NCBI GenBank assembly: GCA_029261965.1
Contig: JAJDAH010000319.1
Span: forward strand, 1-36,419
Source of the DNA: Polyangiaceae bacterium
GTDB lineage: Bacteria; Myxococcota_A; Polyangia; Polyangiales; Polyangiaceae
Direction: 5' to 3'
Length of the DNA: 36,419 nucleotides
In this document: positions 794-20,721 of the stretch, piece by piece
Numbering within the stretch: position 1 is the first letter of the stretch
Layout: each line of letters starts with the position of its first letter
Program-made: the position numbers and the translations under genes
The notes under the pieces: model-generated
The model's database searches: none
Told to the model about the DNA's origin: nothing
The model's input: only the letters and a program-made list of their open reading frames with translations

Positions 794-1378
794 ATGAGTC
801 AGGGTCAAAGGCTGCTATATTCCTCGCCCGCCGTGCGAACCCGCATTCCATGGGCCTTTGCACTCTCGCTGACCGTCGCCACGTCGCTGCTGCAGTGCAA
901 CCAGAGCGACCGGCAGCGCTGCCGCAACGAGGTGAAACGCATCGAGAAGTGCGGCGGGCAAGTGCAGGGTGTCTGCATGTCCGAGGCCGACTTCTGTGAA
1001 GCGGACTGCCACGCCGGCCTGTCCTGTGACGAGCTGTCGGCGAGTGAGCGGCCGACCGAGGTGCAGCAGTGCCTCAGGACCTGCCTCGACTCGTTCACCT
1101 GCGAAGACGACGGCAGCCGCATCGACGAGCGCTGGGTCTGCGATGGGGTCAACGACTGCGTGGACGGCTCGGACGAGCACGGCTGCGAGTACTTCCGCTG
1201 CGACGACGGAACGAAGATCGCGGCATGGCGCGAGTGCACCGGCACCGCGACCTGTGCAGACGAGTCCGACGAGATCGGGTGTGCGGAATGCAACGACGGG
1301 GAGGTGATCCCTCCCGACTGGCGCTGCGACGGGTACGCGGACTGCGCCGGTGGGGAGGACGAGCTGTCATGCAACTGA
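794..1378 (+). CDS. Lipoprotein with three LDL-receptor class A-like repeats
   Basis: 194 residues from the ATG at 794; the upstream ATG at 770 would put eight extra polar residues before the signal. The N-terminus has basic residues, a hydrophobic stretch and a lipobox-like SLLQC (Cys35), so it is probably an outer-surface lipoprotein, although Gln at -1 is unusual. Three LDLa-like repeats fill the C-terminal half: residues about 103-131, 136-163 and 166-193. Each ends in the calcium-binding signature (DCVDGSDEHGC, TCADESDEIGC, DCAGGEDELSC). All lack the first and third Cys of the animal domain, leaving a four-Cys variant. LDLa modules bind calcium and protein ligands, so a binding or adhesion role is inferred. 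The stop overlaps the start of the next gene by 10 bp, which implies translational coupling with the metallopeptidase. Confidence 0.88.
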   Translation: MSQGQRLLYSSPAVRTRIPWAFALSLTVATSLLQCNQSDRQRCRNEVKRIEKCGGQVQGVCMSEADFCEADCHAGLSCDELSASERPTEVQQCLRTCLDSFTCEDDGSRIDERWVCDGVNDCVDGSDEHGCEYFRCDDGTKIAAWRECTGTATCADESDEIGCAECNDGEVIPPDWRCDGYADCAGGEDELSCN

Positions 1379-2781
1379 GCCGGAGCCACGGGCTGCGACT
1401 GACCCAGCTGCTTGCCGCGTTGCTCTGCGCTTGCGCCGACGACGACCCGACAGTGGCGCCGGCCGCATGCGGACAGACGCCGTGCAGTGCCATGTGTGAC
1501 GCGTTGCAGACCGACTGCGACATCCTGGATGACGCCTGCCGTGCGCGCGTTTTCGCCGCAGTGGTCTGTGTCCGCGGCACTCCGGGCGAGCCGCCGGAGG
1601 TACGAGTCATCACGGAAGACGAGTACCGATCGCAACTCGAGGAGAACTTGCTCGGGGATGCTGGCTCGGCGATGGACGCTTCGAGCGACGTCGGCGCAGA
1701 TGGCGGCGCGGCGCTGGACGCTTCGAGCGACGCCAGCGCAGACGCCGGCGGGGCCGAGCCCGACCCGACCACCACCTGGTCCGACGGCCTGCGTCTGCTC
1801 CGCCTGCTGGCCCCGGATACCTCGGTGCTCGAGGCGGCGATCGACGATCGAGTCACGACTACGGCTGGCTTCTACAGCGGTGCGGAACGGGCCATCACGC
1901 TGATAGACCGCGGCGCCGCGCAGGACAGCGCCAGCGCGCGCAATCTGCTCGCCCACGAGTTCGTCCACGCGTTGCAGGATCAGCAGTTCGGGCTCGAGGA
2001 ACTGCGCCGCAGCACCGGCGGCACGATCGATGGAAGCACCGCGGTGCGCTGCCTCACCGAGGGGGAAGCCGACCACTACGCCGATCTGGCGTCGGGCCTG
2101 CTGGAGGGCTTCTCGGTCAATCCCGAGCTCATCATGATCTCAGCCAAGGCCGCGCTGAAGTTTTACCGAGACAGGGTGGCGCTCGACGAGAACCCCTACT
2201 ACGGCGCCGACCGACTGGTCTATCCGGTGGGTCACGCCTTCGTCGCCGACGCGTGGCTGCTCGACGGCAACGCAGGCGTCCAGCGGCTGCTCGGCGCCCC
2301 GCCCGTATCCACCGTGCAGTTCATCCGAGGCTACGGCGAGTTCCGGGACGCGACCATCGCTCCTATCCAGCCGCTTTCCTGTGGCGATGCGCAAGGGCCG
2401 GGCGATGGCTACGAGCTCTACAGTAGCGCGACGCTGGGAGCCTTTCAGGTATTTGGCCTGCTCACCAAGGCGATGGTCGACGATGGAATACGGCCGAGCG
2501 AAGAGGCATGGCGGCACGCCAGCCGATGGAGCCAGGACCGGCTGGCCCTCTTCTCACACGAGAGCGGCGAGGTCGCGGTCTCCTGGCGCATGCGCTTCGT
2601 GCGCGAAGAGGTGGCGGGCCAGGTGGCCGACGCCTTCGAGCGGCGGATCGCCGATGACTGGTCCGACCTGCGCATTCGCCGGCGGGCCGCGGAGATCGAG
2701 CTGCTCGGCAGTACCGACCCGGAGCTGCGAGAGGCCTGGCAGGGCACGGACCCTGAGGCGTGCCCGTCCGACCAGCCCTGA
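1369..2781 (+). CDS. Zinc-dependent gluzincin-type peptidase lipoprotein
   Basis: 470 residues from the ATG at 1369, inside the previous gene; the open frame runs further upstream, but only this start gives a signal peptide (LAALLCAC, lipid Cys22). A Cys-rich segment follows (about 35-65). An Asp/Ser/Ala linker (about 97-135) then repeats the unit DASSDxxADxGG twice. The catalytic motif is HEFVH at 196-200, within a helix reading LLAHEFVHALQDQ, and TEGEADHY follows with acidic residues at 231, 233 and 235. HExxH plus a downstream Glu is the gluzincin arrangement, so a surface zinc endopeptidase is likely. The HEFVHALQDQ wording resembles uncharacterised surface proteins rather than thermolysin, so the substrate is unknown. 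Coupling to the LDLa lipoprotein suggests the two act together outside the cell. Confidence 0.85.
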   Translation: MQLSRSHGLRLTQLLAALLCACADDDPTVAPAACGQTPCSAMCDALQTDCDILDDACRARVFAAVVCVRGTPGEPPEVRVITEDEYRSQLEENLLGDAGSAMDASSDVGADGGAALDASSDASADAGGAEPDPTTTWSDGLRLLRLLAPDTSVLEAAIDDRVTTTAGFYSGAERAITLIDRGAAQDSASARNLLAHEFVHALQDQQFGLEELRRSTGGTIDGSTAVRCLTEGEADHYADLASGLLEGFSVNPELIMISAKAALKFYRDRVALDENPYYGADRLVYPVGHAFVADAWLLDGNAGVQRLLGAPPVSTVQFIRGYGEFRDATIAPIQPLSCGDAQGPGDGYELYSSATLGAFQVFGLLTKAMVDDGIRPSEEAWRHASRWSQDRLALFSHESGEVAVSWRMRFVREEVAGQVADAFERRIADDWSDLRIRRRAAEIELLGSTDPELREAWQGTDPEACPSDQP

Positions 2782-8444: not shown

Positions 8445-9305
8445 TCAGCGGGAGCGCCGCTCGGGAACGAAAGCGTTCGTCTCCGCGATCCAGTCGTTGA
8501 TCCTGTCGGCGACCCACGGGTCCTTGATCTCGGGATCGAAGCCCTTCCTGAAGTACTTTGCGACCGACTCGCGGTCGACGCCCCACTCGGTGTCGCCGAG
8601 CCCTTTCAGGAACATCCAGAGATGGGGCCAGAACCGCTTCCCATGGGCCCGGGCGTCCTTCCAGACAATCTCGGGGATCAGTGTGGTCACGAACAGGTGG
8701 GACATGATCTGTCCCTCCAGGAAGCCCCCGGCCTTCACCCAGTACGAGTCGTCGATGTGGTTGATGACCTTGAGCTTGATGAAGGAGTGCTCGAGCTCCT
8801 CTGCGATGTGCCACTTCCACAGCTTTGCCATTTCCTGCTGCATGCCGGAGGTGTCGAGCACCTGCCGATCGATGTGGCTCTTGAAGAAGCCGAAACCGAC
8901 GAACTCGATGAAGCCGGCGGCCGCGACCGAAACGTAGACCGGCGTCCGCCGCTGGAGGAAGCGGGTGATCCGCTCCGTGACCTTGATCGTGGCGATCTCG
9001 TTCATCCCGATCCTGCGATTGGTGCGAACGTGTTGCCGAGTGTGCTCGGCTTCCTGGTGGACGAAGACGTCGATCAGCTCCCGCAGCCTCGGCTCGTCCG
9101 CCAGGCGCGGATCGTCGCGCACCGCCCGCAAGGCGCGGATCACGTAGCGCTCGAAGGTCGGGATGGCGGCGTTGAGGATGTTGTAGAAGATCCGATAGAA
9201 GTCGTCGTCGCACCATTCCGGCTCGATGCTCTCGACGTCGATTTCGATCCGCTTCGATTGGATGCCCGCTTCGTTCGAAGCCTTCGCGTGTGGCCGAGCG
9301 CTCAT
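8445..9305 (-). CDS. Metal-dependent hydrolase-like protein (PF10118 / ferritin-like helical fold)
   Basis: 286 residues starting MSARPHAK; the ATG overlaps the stop of the upstream membrane gene as ATGA, so the start is well fixed and the two are translationally coupled. The protein is mainly helical. Two paired metal motifs stand out: HQEAEHTRQH (residues 83-92) and WHIAEELEHSFIKLKV (165-180), each with an ExxH. This is the signature of the family annotated as predicted metal-dependent hydrolases (Metal_hydrol), whose layout resembles diiron ferritin-like proteins. A dinuclear metal centre acting as an oxygenase, desaturase-like enzyme or hydrolase is therefore plausible, but the reaction is not established. 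Pairing with a polytopic membrane protein suggests a membrane or lipid substrate. Confidence 0.8.
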   Translation of the reverse strand: MSARPHAKASNEAGIQSKRIEIDVESIEPEWCDDDFYRIFYNILNAAIPTFERYVIRALRAVRDDPRLADEPRLRELIDVFVHQEAEHTRQHVRTNRRIGMNEIATIKVTERITRFLQRRTPVYVSVAAAGFIEFVGFGFFKSHIDRQVLDTSGMQQEMAKLWKWHIAEELEHSFIKLKVINHIDDSYWVKAGGFLEGQIMSHLFVTTLIPEIVWKDARAHGKRFWPHLWMFLKGLGDTEWGVDRESVAKYFRKGFDPEIKDPWVADRINDWIAETNAFVPERRSR

Positions 9306-10330
9306 CGGCTCTCCTGCCCGTTCGCCCGCTCTCCAACAGTCGGATGGGAGACCAGGGTGATCGCCGCGGAGGCGATGATCGCGACGACGGCGACGATCGG
9401 ATTGCCCACGGCCAGTCCCTCCGCCGAGAGCCCGTCCGGATCGACCGAGAAGTAGATGTCGAGCTTCGCCGCGTAGATGTAGACGTGGCCCATGAGCCAC
9501 ACGACCGGAAAGACCATCAGCAGTCGATCGCGTGGGGCACGGGGCCATCGAAAGTGCAGGACGAAAGCCAACCCGGCCAGCCCGAACGAGAACGCATGGA
9601 GCGTGGCGGCCTGGGCGAGCAAGCCGTTGTACGCCAGCACGTTGTAGGGGATGAACACCACGATCCCGACGACGCAGGTCACGAGCGGGAAGAGTACGAC
9701 GCCGGCGGCGATCTGCTTGGGGCTCTTATGTTGCTCGACCCAATCCCAGCAGACGATTCGATTGATGTACGCGAAAATGGCCGTCCAGGAGAAAAACCAG
9801 AAATAGCTGGTGACCGGGACGGCGTTCAAGAAGGGCCAATTGGTCGGGTCGCTCCGATCCCAGATCCACCAGTTGAGCATGGGGCCGAGGTTGTCGAAGA
9901 TCATGTACATCAGTCCACCGTAGAAGCCAGTGCTCAGGGCTTCGACGCCGCGCGGGAACTCGTACCGCCGGATCGTCATGCAGAAGTGGTAGATGAGGGT
10001 CGCGGCGAGAACGACGATGTAGAGCGGCAGCCGGTTGTAGACCAGCATGACCGAGAACTCACCGTGCCAGAAGCTCTCCACCGTGTAGTAGGAGACGATG
10101 TCGTTCAGCAGTCCGAAGATGAGGGCGCCGACGAAGGTCAGCAGCGCGGAGGCGTGGCCGTTCTCCTTGTAGTGCCGCCACGCGTGGAGCACCGCGCACA
10201 CCACGCCCACGGCCAGGATGAACTCGATCGCGAGAAAGCTCCAATCCTTCAGCTCGCTGGGGGCGTTGAAGTTGAGCCAGCGGCCCACGGCGTCCGTGTT
10301 CCGCATCGCATACGAGATCGGCTCATCCAT
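9302..10330 (-). CDS. Polytopic inner-membrane protein of unknown function
   Basis: 342 residues from the ATG at 10330 (MDEPISYAMRN); a TTG at 10393 would add 21 residues with no clear gain. At least seven or eight hydrophobic helices are visible, for example FLAIEFILAVGVVCAVLHAW, ALLTFVGALIFGLLNDIV, LYIVVLAATLIYHFC, WFFSWTAIFAYI and GVVLFPLVTCVVGIVVFIPY. Loops contain conserved-looking aromatic and charged residues (RRYEFPRG, NWWIWDRSDPTNWPF). Similar proteins are annotated only as hypothetical or DUF. The four-base overlap with the Metal_hydrol-type gene argues for a functional pair, perhaps a membrane anchor or transporter working with a diiron-like enzyme. No known transporter signature was seen. 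Confidence 0.75.
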   Translation of the reverse strand: MDEPISYAMRNTDAVGRWLNFNAPSELKDWSFLAIEFILAVGVVCAVLHAWRHYKENGHASALLTFVGALIFGLLNDIVSYYTVESFWHGEFSVMLVYNRLPLYIVVLAATLIYHFCMTIRRYEFPRGVEALSTGFYGGLMYMIFDNLGPMLNWWIWDRSDPTNWPFLNAVPVTSYFWFFSWTAIFAYINRIVCWDWVEQHKSPKQIAAGVVLFPLVTCVVGIVVFIPYNVLAYNGLLAQAATLHAFSFGLAGLAFVLHFRWPRAPRDRLLMVFPVVWLMGHVYIYAAKLDIYFSVDPDGLSAEGLAVGNPIVAVVAIIASAAITLVSHPTVGERANGQESR

Positions 10331-18823: not shown

Positions 18824-20721
18824 AGACATCCCGAGGCAAACAGAAGGTGGCGGCGACCTCCGATGTGCTCGGCGTGGATCTCGAGGAGGTTGTCAGCAAA
18901 CTTCGGGTGGGCAAGGGTGTCCGGCGCACTCTGCGCCCCGGCGGCCGGCTGCACATCGACAGACCGCTGCCCTTCTTGTTCGTCTACCGTCAGCCGTCGA
19001 GTTCAGCCCATCCGGGGACCGAAGCGCTCATTACGACACAAGCGTCTTACCTCTGGATATCGGGCGAGCGAGCCGACGAGGCACGCGTCGCGCAACTGAT
19101 CCGCGCGATCGTTTGCGTCATGGTCGACGCCTTCAAAGCGTGCCTGGTCCTGGAGGTCTCGGTCGCAAACGCCGCCGACGCTAGCGCGCCCGACGCGCCG
19201 TTCTTCCGAATCGTGGCCACTCCCGACGGCGAGCCGGCGGAAACAGTTGCAGACCTGGAGGCAGAGCTGAGCCAGGTCTCGCAGGACAACGAGACCCGAG
19301 TCGAAGTCGAGCGTCGTGCTGTGCCATCGGCGGCAGGCGTCGCCCCCCTACTGGATACCAAGAACCGACCAGCGGGCTGCTTTGTCATGGGTCTCGAGAT
19401 CCAGCCACCAACTGCGGACGCCTCCAGCTGGCAGCTCCCACAAGCTCATCGTCAGCTGCGCCGAACCCTCGCGCGTGCGTTGAAGCATGCTGCATTTCAC
19501 TTTTCTACGCGACGCACGACGCAGCGGCCGAGCCATTTCCTCGCACTCGGCCGAGGGCGGTTCTTGAAGGCGGTCTCGGAAGCGGATCGACAGCTTGCCG
19601 AGCTGAGCAATCGCTTCGACTTTCTCTTGCTGTCTACGCCGCGCAACACGAGCGAGGCCTGGGCGGAGTTTCGACGGAGTCGATTCTCGAAAGAGCCATC
19701 GTTCTCCTATCCACCGCTTCCTTTCGACCCAGCGCTCATGAAGAGGAAGTTGTACGAAATCCAGCTCGAGGACATCGAGGACCCAGCGATGGAGGACCTC
19801 TTCCTCGAGCAGCAGGACGGGCTCGACCGTAGGATCACGATGCTCTCGGATCGCAATACGCCTCGCTTTAGGTACGGGAGTCTTCAGGTGTTCGGCACAG
19901 TCGACGACCCGCTTCTGGCTGAAGCGCAGACGTTGCTCGATCGGATCCCGTCACGAAGTCGTGAAGGCTCCAAAGGTGACGCGTTGGATGCACGAGCATT
20001 CGCCAAGCGGGCACGGCAGGAGCTCGACCGGTTGCGTACAAGGTGGGGCCGCCTCCCTGCGGAAGTACGGATCCGCACCGATATTGCCGGGCTGATGGTT
20101 TCACGCGGTCACTTGCTGGTGCCATCGAAAGCGACGATCCCGGCTTCGCGAGTGGATGCACTGCTGCAGCACGAGATCGGTACGCACATCGTCACGTACT
20201 ACAATGGTGCGGCTCAGCCTTTCCGCCAGCTTCGGAATGGCCTGCCCGGTTACGACGAGCTTCAGGAGGGGCTGGCTGTTTTGGCTGAGTACTTGGTCGG
20301 TGGTCTCAGCCGGGCTCGGCTCCGCATCTTGGCAGCGCGCGTCGTGGCCGTTCGCCGCATGATCGATGGCGCGTCCTTTGTCGACGTGTTCCGTGAGCTC
20401 GATCGTGACTACGACTTTGCCCAGCGTACGGCGTACTCCGTCACAGTGCGTGTTTTTCGTGGAGGGGGCCAGGCGAAAGATGCCGTCTACTTGCGCGGGC
20501 TCACGGCGCTGCTCAGCTACTTGGGTGAAGGCGGAAGCCTCGACCCGTTGTTGGTCGGCAAGATCGCGCTGAAACATCTGCCGGTCCTTCACGACCTGCG
20601 GCTGCGAGAGGTGCTCGTGGCGCCACCTTTTCGGCCGAGCTACCTCGATCTCCCGGACGCCGTCGCGCGTCTCGAATCGTTGCGGAAAGGTGCCCAGGTC
20701 ATCGACCTGGCGAAGACATAA
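18820..20721 (+). CDS. QEGLA-motif HExxxH metallopeptidase-like protein (DUF1704, flavohemoglobin expression-modulating family)
   Basis: 633 residues; the GTG start overlaps the preceding stop as GTGA, so the pair is translationally coupled. The C-terminal half holds the family signature: HEIGTH (451-456) followed by QEGLA (482-486, in YDELQEGLAVLAEYL). His, His and Glu are the expected zinc ligands. This family is annotated as modulating flavohemoglobin expression and is related to the animal tyrosine carboxypeptidase MATCAP, which uses the same HExxxH. The N-terminal 300 residues form an extra domain containing PLPFLFVYRQP and RPSHFLALGRGRF, and the protein is longer than the usual 400-residue members. 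A carboxypeptidase trimming a peptide or protein end in the cytoplasm is plausible but not demonstrated for bacteria. Confidence 0.88.
   Translation: MKTSRGKQKVAATSDVLGVDLEEVVSKLRVGKGVRRTLRPGGRLHIDRPLPFLFVYRQPSSSAHPGTEALITTQASYLWISGERADEARVAQLIRAIVCVMVDAFKACLVLEVSVANAADASAPDAPFFRIVATPDGEPAETVADLEAELSQVSQDNETRVEVERRAVPSAAGVAPLLDTKNRPAGCFVMGLEIQPPTADASSWQLPQAHRQLRRTLARALKHAAFHFSTRRTTQRPSHFLALGRGRFLKAVSEADRQLAELSNRFDFLLLSTPRNTSEAWAEFRRSRFSKEPSFSYPPLPFDPALMKRKLYEIQLEDIEDPAMEDLFLEQQDGLDRRITMLSDRNTPRFRYGSLQVFGTVDDPLLAEAQTLLDRIPSRSREGSKGDALDARAFAKRARQELDRLRTRWGRLPAEVRIRTDIAGLMVSRGHLLVPSKATIPASRVDALLQHEIGTHIVTYYNGAAQPFRQLRNGLPGYDELQEGLAVLAEYLVGGLSRARLRILAARVVAVRRMIDGASFVDVFRELDRDYDFAQRTAYSVTVRVFRGGGQAKDAVYLRGLTALLSYLGEGGSLDPLLVGKIALKHLPVLHDLRLREVLVAPPFRPSYLDLPDAVARLESLRKGAQVIDLAKT

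Follow-up and report, generated by a model that had tools for sequence, protein, structure and literature searches.

LDLa modules are textbook parts of animal receptors. The standard module contains six cysteines joined in three disulphides (C1–C3, C2–C5 and C4–C6), and such modules bind other proteins through acidic, calcium-loaded surfaces. In corin the LDLa repeats are carried on the protease chain itself (PMC9138375), and the beta subunit of glucosidase II binds the catalytic alpha subunit via acidic, calcium-binding residues (PMC9713302). A described relative on the protease side is Hvo_1808 of Haloferax volcanii, a lipobox protein recovered for the most part from cell-associated fractions (PMC2945643). 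A literature search brought up no paper on LDLa proteins of bacteria.

The stretch of DNA analysed here (the window, 36,419 nucleotides of one contig from a Polyangiaceae bacterium) contains a gene for an LDLa protein followed directly by a gene for a predicted gluzincin (Table 1). The module and the catalytic fold are known, each for itself; new is the combination of the two genes, in an unusual setting in which the protease family swaps its partners. Two start codons are possible for the LDLa gene, and the GTG was picked by codon scoring. An overlap of the protease start with the end of the LDLa gene had been noticed in a sequence-only reading of this DNA and was borne out as an overlap of 10 bp. 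Simple scans for promoters and terminators gave nothing useful.

Table 1 Features of the LDLa–protease locus and of a second partner type (window coordinates unless a locus is named; aa amino acids)
Feature	Position	Strand	Description
LDLa lipoprotein-like gene	833..1378	+	181 aa from GTG 833; 194 aa if the start is ATG 794
N-terminal Cys-rich domain	896..1084	+	opens with a C-x9-C motif; helical in the AF2 model
LDLa repeat 1	1079..1186	+	C2, C4, C5, C6; ligands D D D E; 35.0 bits with PF00057
LDLa repeat 2	1184..1285	+	four Cys; ligands T T D E
LDLa repeat 3	1286..1372	+	four Cys; ligands D D D E; 32.6 bits with PF00057
10-bp overlap ATGCAACTGA	1369..1378	+	protease start and LDLa stop
Protease gene	1369..2781	+	470 aa; gluzincin-type metalloprotease lipoprotein, Hvo_1808-related
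Cys-rich N-terminal segment of the protease	1468..1578	+	consensus CDVRD..C......ACxRG; C50, D51, C57, C67, R69 and G70 conserved (alignment A1)
Asp/Ala/Ser-rich linker	1663..1758	+	disordered in the model; pLDDT <50 at residues 99-125
Catalytic domain	1765..2358	+	HEFVH 1954-1968; third ligand Glu231, codon 2059-2061
C-terminal domain	2368..2772	+	resembles the PknH extracellular sensor domain
Cys-rich lipoprotein without LDLa	L072:11929-12441; L280:1186-1695	-; +	38% identity between the two loci

The three LDLa-like repeats recognised earlier are confirmed by Pfam, as PF00057 matches window:794-1375 in three stretches with an E-value of 1.3e-14 and 54.6 bits at a cut-off of 24.1. A phmmer search against the PDB led to chains of megalin, LDLR and VLDLR. 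The AF2 model (mean pLDDT 86.7, pTM 0.51) consists of a helical N-terminal domain and then three LDLa folds, whose placement relative to each other and to that domain is unsure at this pTM, and a Foldseek search with it matched megalin, LDLR, VLDLR and CD320 with E-values down to 3e-6. The modules of these proteins and of complement factor I match the bacterial protein in sequence and fold and, for the most part, in the calcium-ligand positions. The window protein differs from them in being a four-cysteine form without C1 and C3, in its N-terminal Cys-rich domain and in being a predicted bacterial lipoprotein.

The four-cysteine form of the repeats was likewise found as described before, with C2, C4, C5 and C6 present and C3 absent in all three. 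Measured against the module with six cysteines and three disulphides, C3 is missing in three of three repeats and an own C1 in two of three; repeat 1 has a cysteine near the C1 position, which may be part of the preceding domain. The four-cysteine form probably reflects the loss of the entire C1–C3 disulphide. Repeats 1 and 3 have a full set of calcium-ligand residues. In repeat 2 two of these are lost, which makes it a degenerate repeat with probably weak or no calcium binding.

The N-terminal domain comprises eight invariant cysteines beyond the lipid cysteine (C9, C19, C27, C34, C38, C44, C59 and C63 in alignment A2) and the modelled helices 5-18, 30-38 and 54-64. Together with LDLa repeats it forms a lipoprotein family which is present in many genomes of the order and is class-wide. 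Among the parsed repeats of this family, solo and linked members taken together, C3 before C4 is absent in 72 of 73 and present in one, whereas C3 is present in 69 of 133 repeats of LDLa proteins outside the family that are encoded at these loci. By this count the four-cysteine repeat is a trait of the family which combines the N-terminal domain with LDLa repeats, and not a peculiarity of the window locus; the earlier observation stands as such, but the form is not special to the pair.

Lipoprotein signals had been assigned to both proteins. In the protease the lipobox (ALLCAC, ending in LCAC) is canonical and the lipid Cys22 is invariant in all 28 relatives. The LDLa protein has a signal peptide followed by the mature cysteine at position 896, but its lipobox LLQC is atypical, with an unusual Q at −1. 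The lipobox ends of linked LDLa homologues (LVSC, AAGC, LAAC, AIGC) look canonical, and the lipidation predicted for the window protein therefore leans partly on these homologues.

The second protein had been described as a HExxH...E metallopeptidase, and both its signature and its modelled fold agree with this. Residues H196, E197, H200, E231, G232 and A234 of the gluzincin signature HExxH...EGxA do not vary in any of the 28 relatives aligned, so that the metal ligands, whose conservation had been in question, are invariant; Y285 and G288 are so as well. The protein is predicted to bind zinc and to be proteolytic. Its AF2 model (mean pLDDT 83.6, pTM 0.84) gave no significant match to the PDB with Foldseek. 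In a second look with VIA-align, residues 49-331, with the catalytic region, were superimposed on 3cmn, a putative hydrolase of Chloroflexus aurantiacus (Z 11.6, rmsd 4.6, 215 aligned), with Z 8 to 9 on the peptidase domains of the M9 clostridial collagenases G, H and T, and with Z 6 to 9 on peptidases of M4 (vibriolysin; about 7) and M1. The families M9, M4 and M1 are gluzincins; 3cmn itself is presumably uncharacterised. With these as its best matches, the modelled catalytic domain has a gluzincin fold, the same as in 3cmn, M9, M4 and M1, although identity to them is low and none came up when PDB sequences were searched with a profile: alignment A3 yielded only an IrrE-like protein (E 0.29). 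Residues 334-468 match 4esq, the extracellular domain of PknH (VIA-align; Z 8.3, rmsd 3.2, 118 aligned).

The NCBIfam model of the Hvo_1808 family, NF038145, is matched by residues 147-320 with 66.2 bits (E 3.3e-18), below its cut-off of 200, and all 28 aligned relatives match it too. Homologues of the protease are numerous in haloarchaea and occur in some other bacteria. On these scores the protease is a distant relative, but not a member, of the haloarchaeal Hvo_1808 family. It shares with Hvo_1808 a homologous core and the lipobox, and differs by its score, by the Cys-rich N-terminal segment and by the coupling to an LDLa gene.

The co-occurrence of the two genes was surveyed in 317 genomes of the class, which were profile-searched for LDLa and the protease before the regions were fetched and scanned. 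Adjacent pairs were found in six loci, namely the window, L065 (genome G097), L232 (G161), L233 (G167), L283 (G261) and L284 (G263), which represent five genera from three families within a single class. Start and stop codons overlap or abut in all six, so the coupling seen in the window recurs in five further loci, which supports the functional link that had been suspected. In L232 and L233 candidate ATG starts precede the end of the LDLa stop codon by 10 or 4 bp, in L065 a candidate GTG does so by 10 bp or an ATG by 20 bp, and the junctions of L283 and L284 read TAATG and ATGA. Flanking genes look different among the window, L065 and L232, the three loci inspected, while the two-gene unit is retained; the window and L232 are 43% identical in the LDLa protein and 38% in the protease. 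The copy in L233 is broken or mis-sequenced, as its protease is divided between two reading frames and its LDLa gene has the N-terminal domain out of frame. The protease of L065 (12244-14871, + strand) carries a long extra C-terminal region, absent from the other aligned relatives, and reaches about 880 amino acids in total.

The link is thus conserved in six loci but in some lineages only, and for either gene the majority of relatives occur without the other. Within group B, a clade of 44 rows in the protease tree, only six of the 44 proteases are linked to an LDLa gene, and 20 of the 25 LDLa lipoproteins parsed from this family lack a linked protease. The window genome itself has LDLa matches on three other contigs and at least three other protease relatives elsewhere.

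Upstream of the remaining group-B proteases different genes were encountered. In L072 and L280 a Cys-rich lipoprotein without LDLa precedes the protease with 4-bp overlaps; homology of the LDLa protein to the partner in L072 was considered and is unsupported (hhalign E 0.61). A barrel-like protein is coupled to the protease in L240, L241, L286, L287 and L291; in L243, L246 and L282 the coupled protein belongs to another barrel-like family. Both families are probably outer-membrane barrels, an assignment made by inspection of signal peptide, strand-like pattern and C-terminal end; Pfam gave no match for either. The partner groups track the protease clades, L243 only loosely; for most other group-B proteases such a neighbour is absent or the gene is close to the end of its contig. 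The change of partners argues for a more general role as partner or in docking, over the receptor role which had been ascribed to the LDLa protein in particular. Substrate presentation and a part in predation or development, which had also been proposed for the pair, are conjecture. In a separate conserved neighbourhood, another clade of the protease family adjoins a ribulose-phosphate 3-epimerase-like gene in several genomes (L114, L075, L080 and L115).

In the protease tree (n=53) one clade (95/80) unites all linked proteases but one. This sixth protease, from L065, groups with an unlinked paralogue of its own genome, G097. A clade of exactly the six linked proteases was rejected by the AU test (p 3.5e-4), whereas a clade of the six together with this paralogue was not rejected (p 0.27), which fits one origin of the linked proteases and one loss of the partner. 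The LDLa-side tree, short and poorly resolved, neither showed nor rejected that the linked form arose only once (p 0.53).

The linked LDLa proteins are marked by their cysteines. All 20 parsed unlinked members of the family have an extra cysteine in the N-terminal domain and exactly one cysteine after the last repeat, and both are absent from the intact linked members (0 of 5), a count which ignores shared ancestry. From this pairing we infer that solo members possess a disulphide tying the C-tail to the N-terminal domain, which linked members would lack. An extra pair in all solo and in no linked members amounts to a natural experiment in the disulphide requirements of the module.

The translational coupling, the recurrence of the pair and the change of partner from one protease clade to another suggest that the LDLa protein is an accessory, docking or substrate-binding subunit of the protease, a reading to which we give about an even chance. 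The data suggest that the two genes are one functional unit, a two-subunit, calcium-dependent surface protease with interchangeable, clade-specific partners. A cell-envelope zinc protease of the gluzincin type and a small non-catalytic LDLa lipoprotein would be translated in step. The N-terminal Cys-rich domain of the latter may serve as a folded platform, from which calcium-loaded repeats could bind either the protease or a protein that it cuts, and thereby bring enzyme and substrate together at the membrane. Since this position is taken by other partners in other protease clades, docking or targeting is probably contributed by the partner and cutting by the protease. The two genes, their coupled junction, the recurrence of the pair, the conservation of the catalytic and of most calcium ligands, confidently modelled domain folds and the exchange of partners between clades are observed; physical contact, calcium dependence, proteolytic activity, the location at the cell surface and the substrate are what we infer. 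The beta subunit of glucosidase II is likewise a separate non-catalytic LDLa-like subunit, and its chains structurally match the window repeats; it differs in belonging to the eukaryotic ER, in having a glycosidase as partner and in a demonstrated homology limited to the module. In corin and further type II transmembrane serine proteases with LDLa modules, a surface protease is combined with such repeats too, but in a single polypeptide, with a serine protease and in animals.

Several points count against a subunit. Most relatives are unpaired, repeat 2 is without two calcium ligands and the copy in L233 is broken. Glucosidase II would lead one to expect a basic patch specific to the paired proteases, but inspection of the protease revealed neither such a patch nor any other clear pair-specific surface. 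More tentatively, the protease family may represent class-wide surface gluzincins that receive their specificity or placement from an interchangeable partner coupled upstream, be it the LDLa lipoprotein, the other Cys-rich lipoprotein or a member of either barrel-like family, the LDLa version being a bacterial calcium-dependent two-subunit protease analogous to the LDLa–protease combinations of animals. Such partner-swapping would be a new way to assign a surface protease its task. With a genetically conserved enzyme partner at hand, the function of a bacterial LDLa protein becomes directly testable.

The missing pair-specific surface would also be explained if both proteins were co-expressed for the same cell-envelope process without touching each other, as would the fact that both families mostly stand alone. 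We consider this rather unlikely, as the junction is kept across three families though the flanking genes look different, and the linked LDLa proteins have a common, distinct cysteine pattern. A regulatory role, in which the LDLa lipoprotein acts as inhibitor, folding helper or zymogen guard and holds the protease inactive until released by calcium or a ligand, appears unlikely as well. The upstream position with start and stop overlapping in step with the enzyme and the clade-specific partner type are compatible with it, and the lack of the extra cysteine pair in linked members could free the C-tail to act on the enzyme; yet LDLa modules are known for ligand binding, unlinked family members exist without any protease neighbour, and no prodomain-like feature was seen. 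That the LDLa gene is a chance neighbour in a gene-rich myxobacterial genome is very improbable and was rejected, despite the further LDLa contigs and protease relatives in the window genome, since the same gene order and coupled junction are conserved in six loci of five genera.

Two further observations concern other parts of the window. Two overlapping genes lie at 8445-10330 (− strand), one for a predicted metal-dependent hydrolase (PF10118, E 2.5e-34), the other for a DUF7802 protein. The region 20152-20721 (+ strand) matches the Pfam family MATCAP, microtubule-associated tyrosine carboxypeptidase, with an E-value of 1.1e-59 in a bacterium, the match covering only the C-terminal half of the profile.
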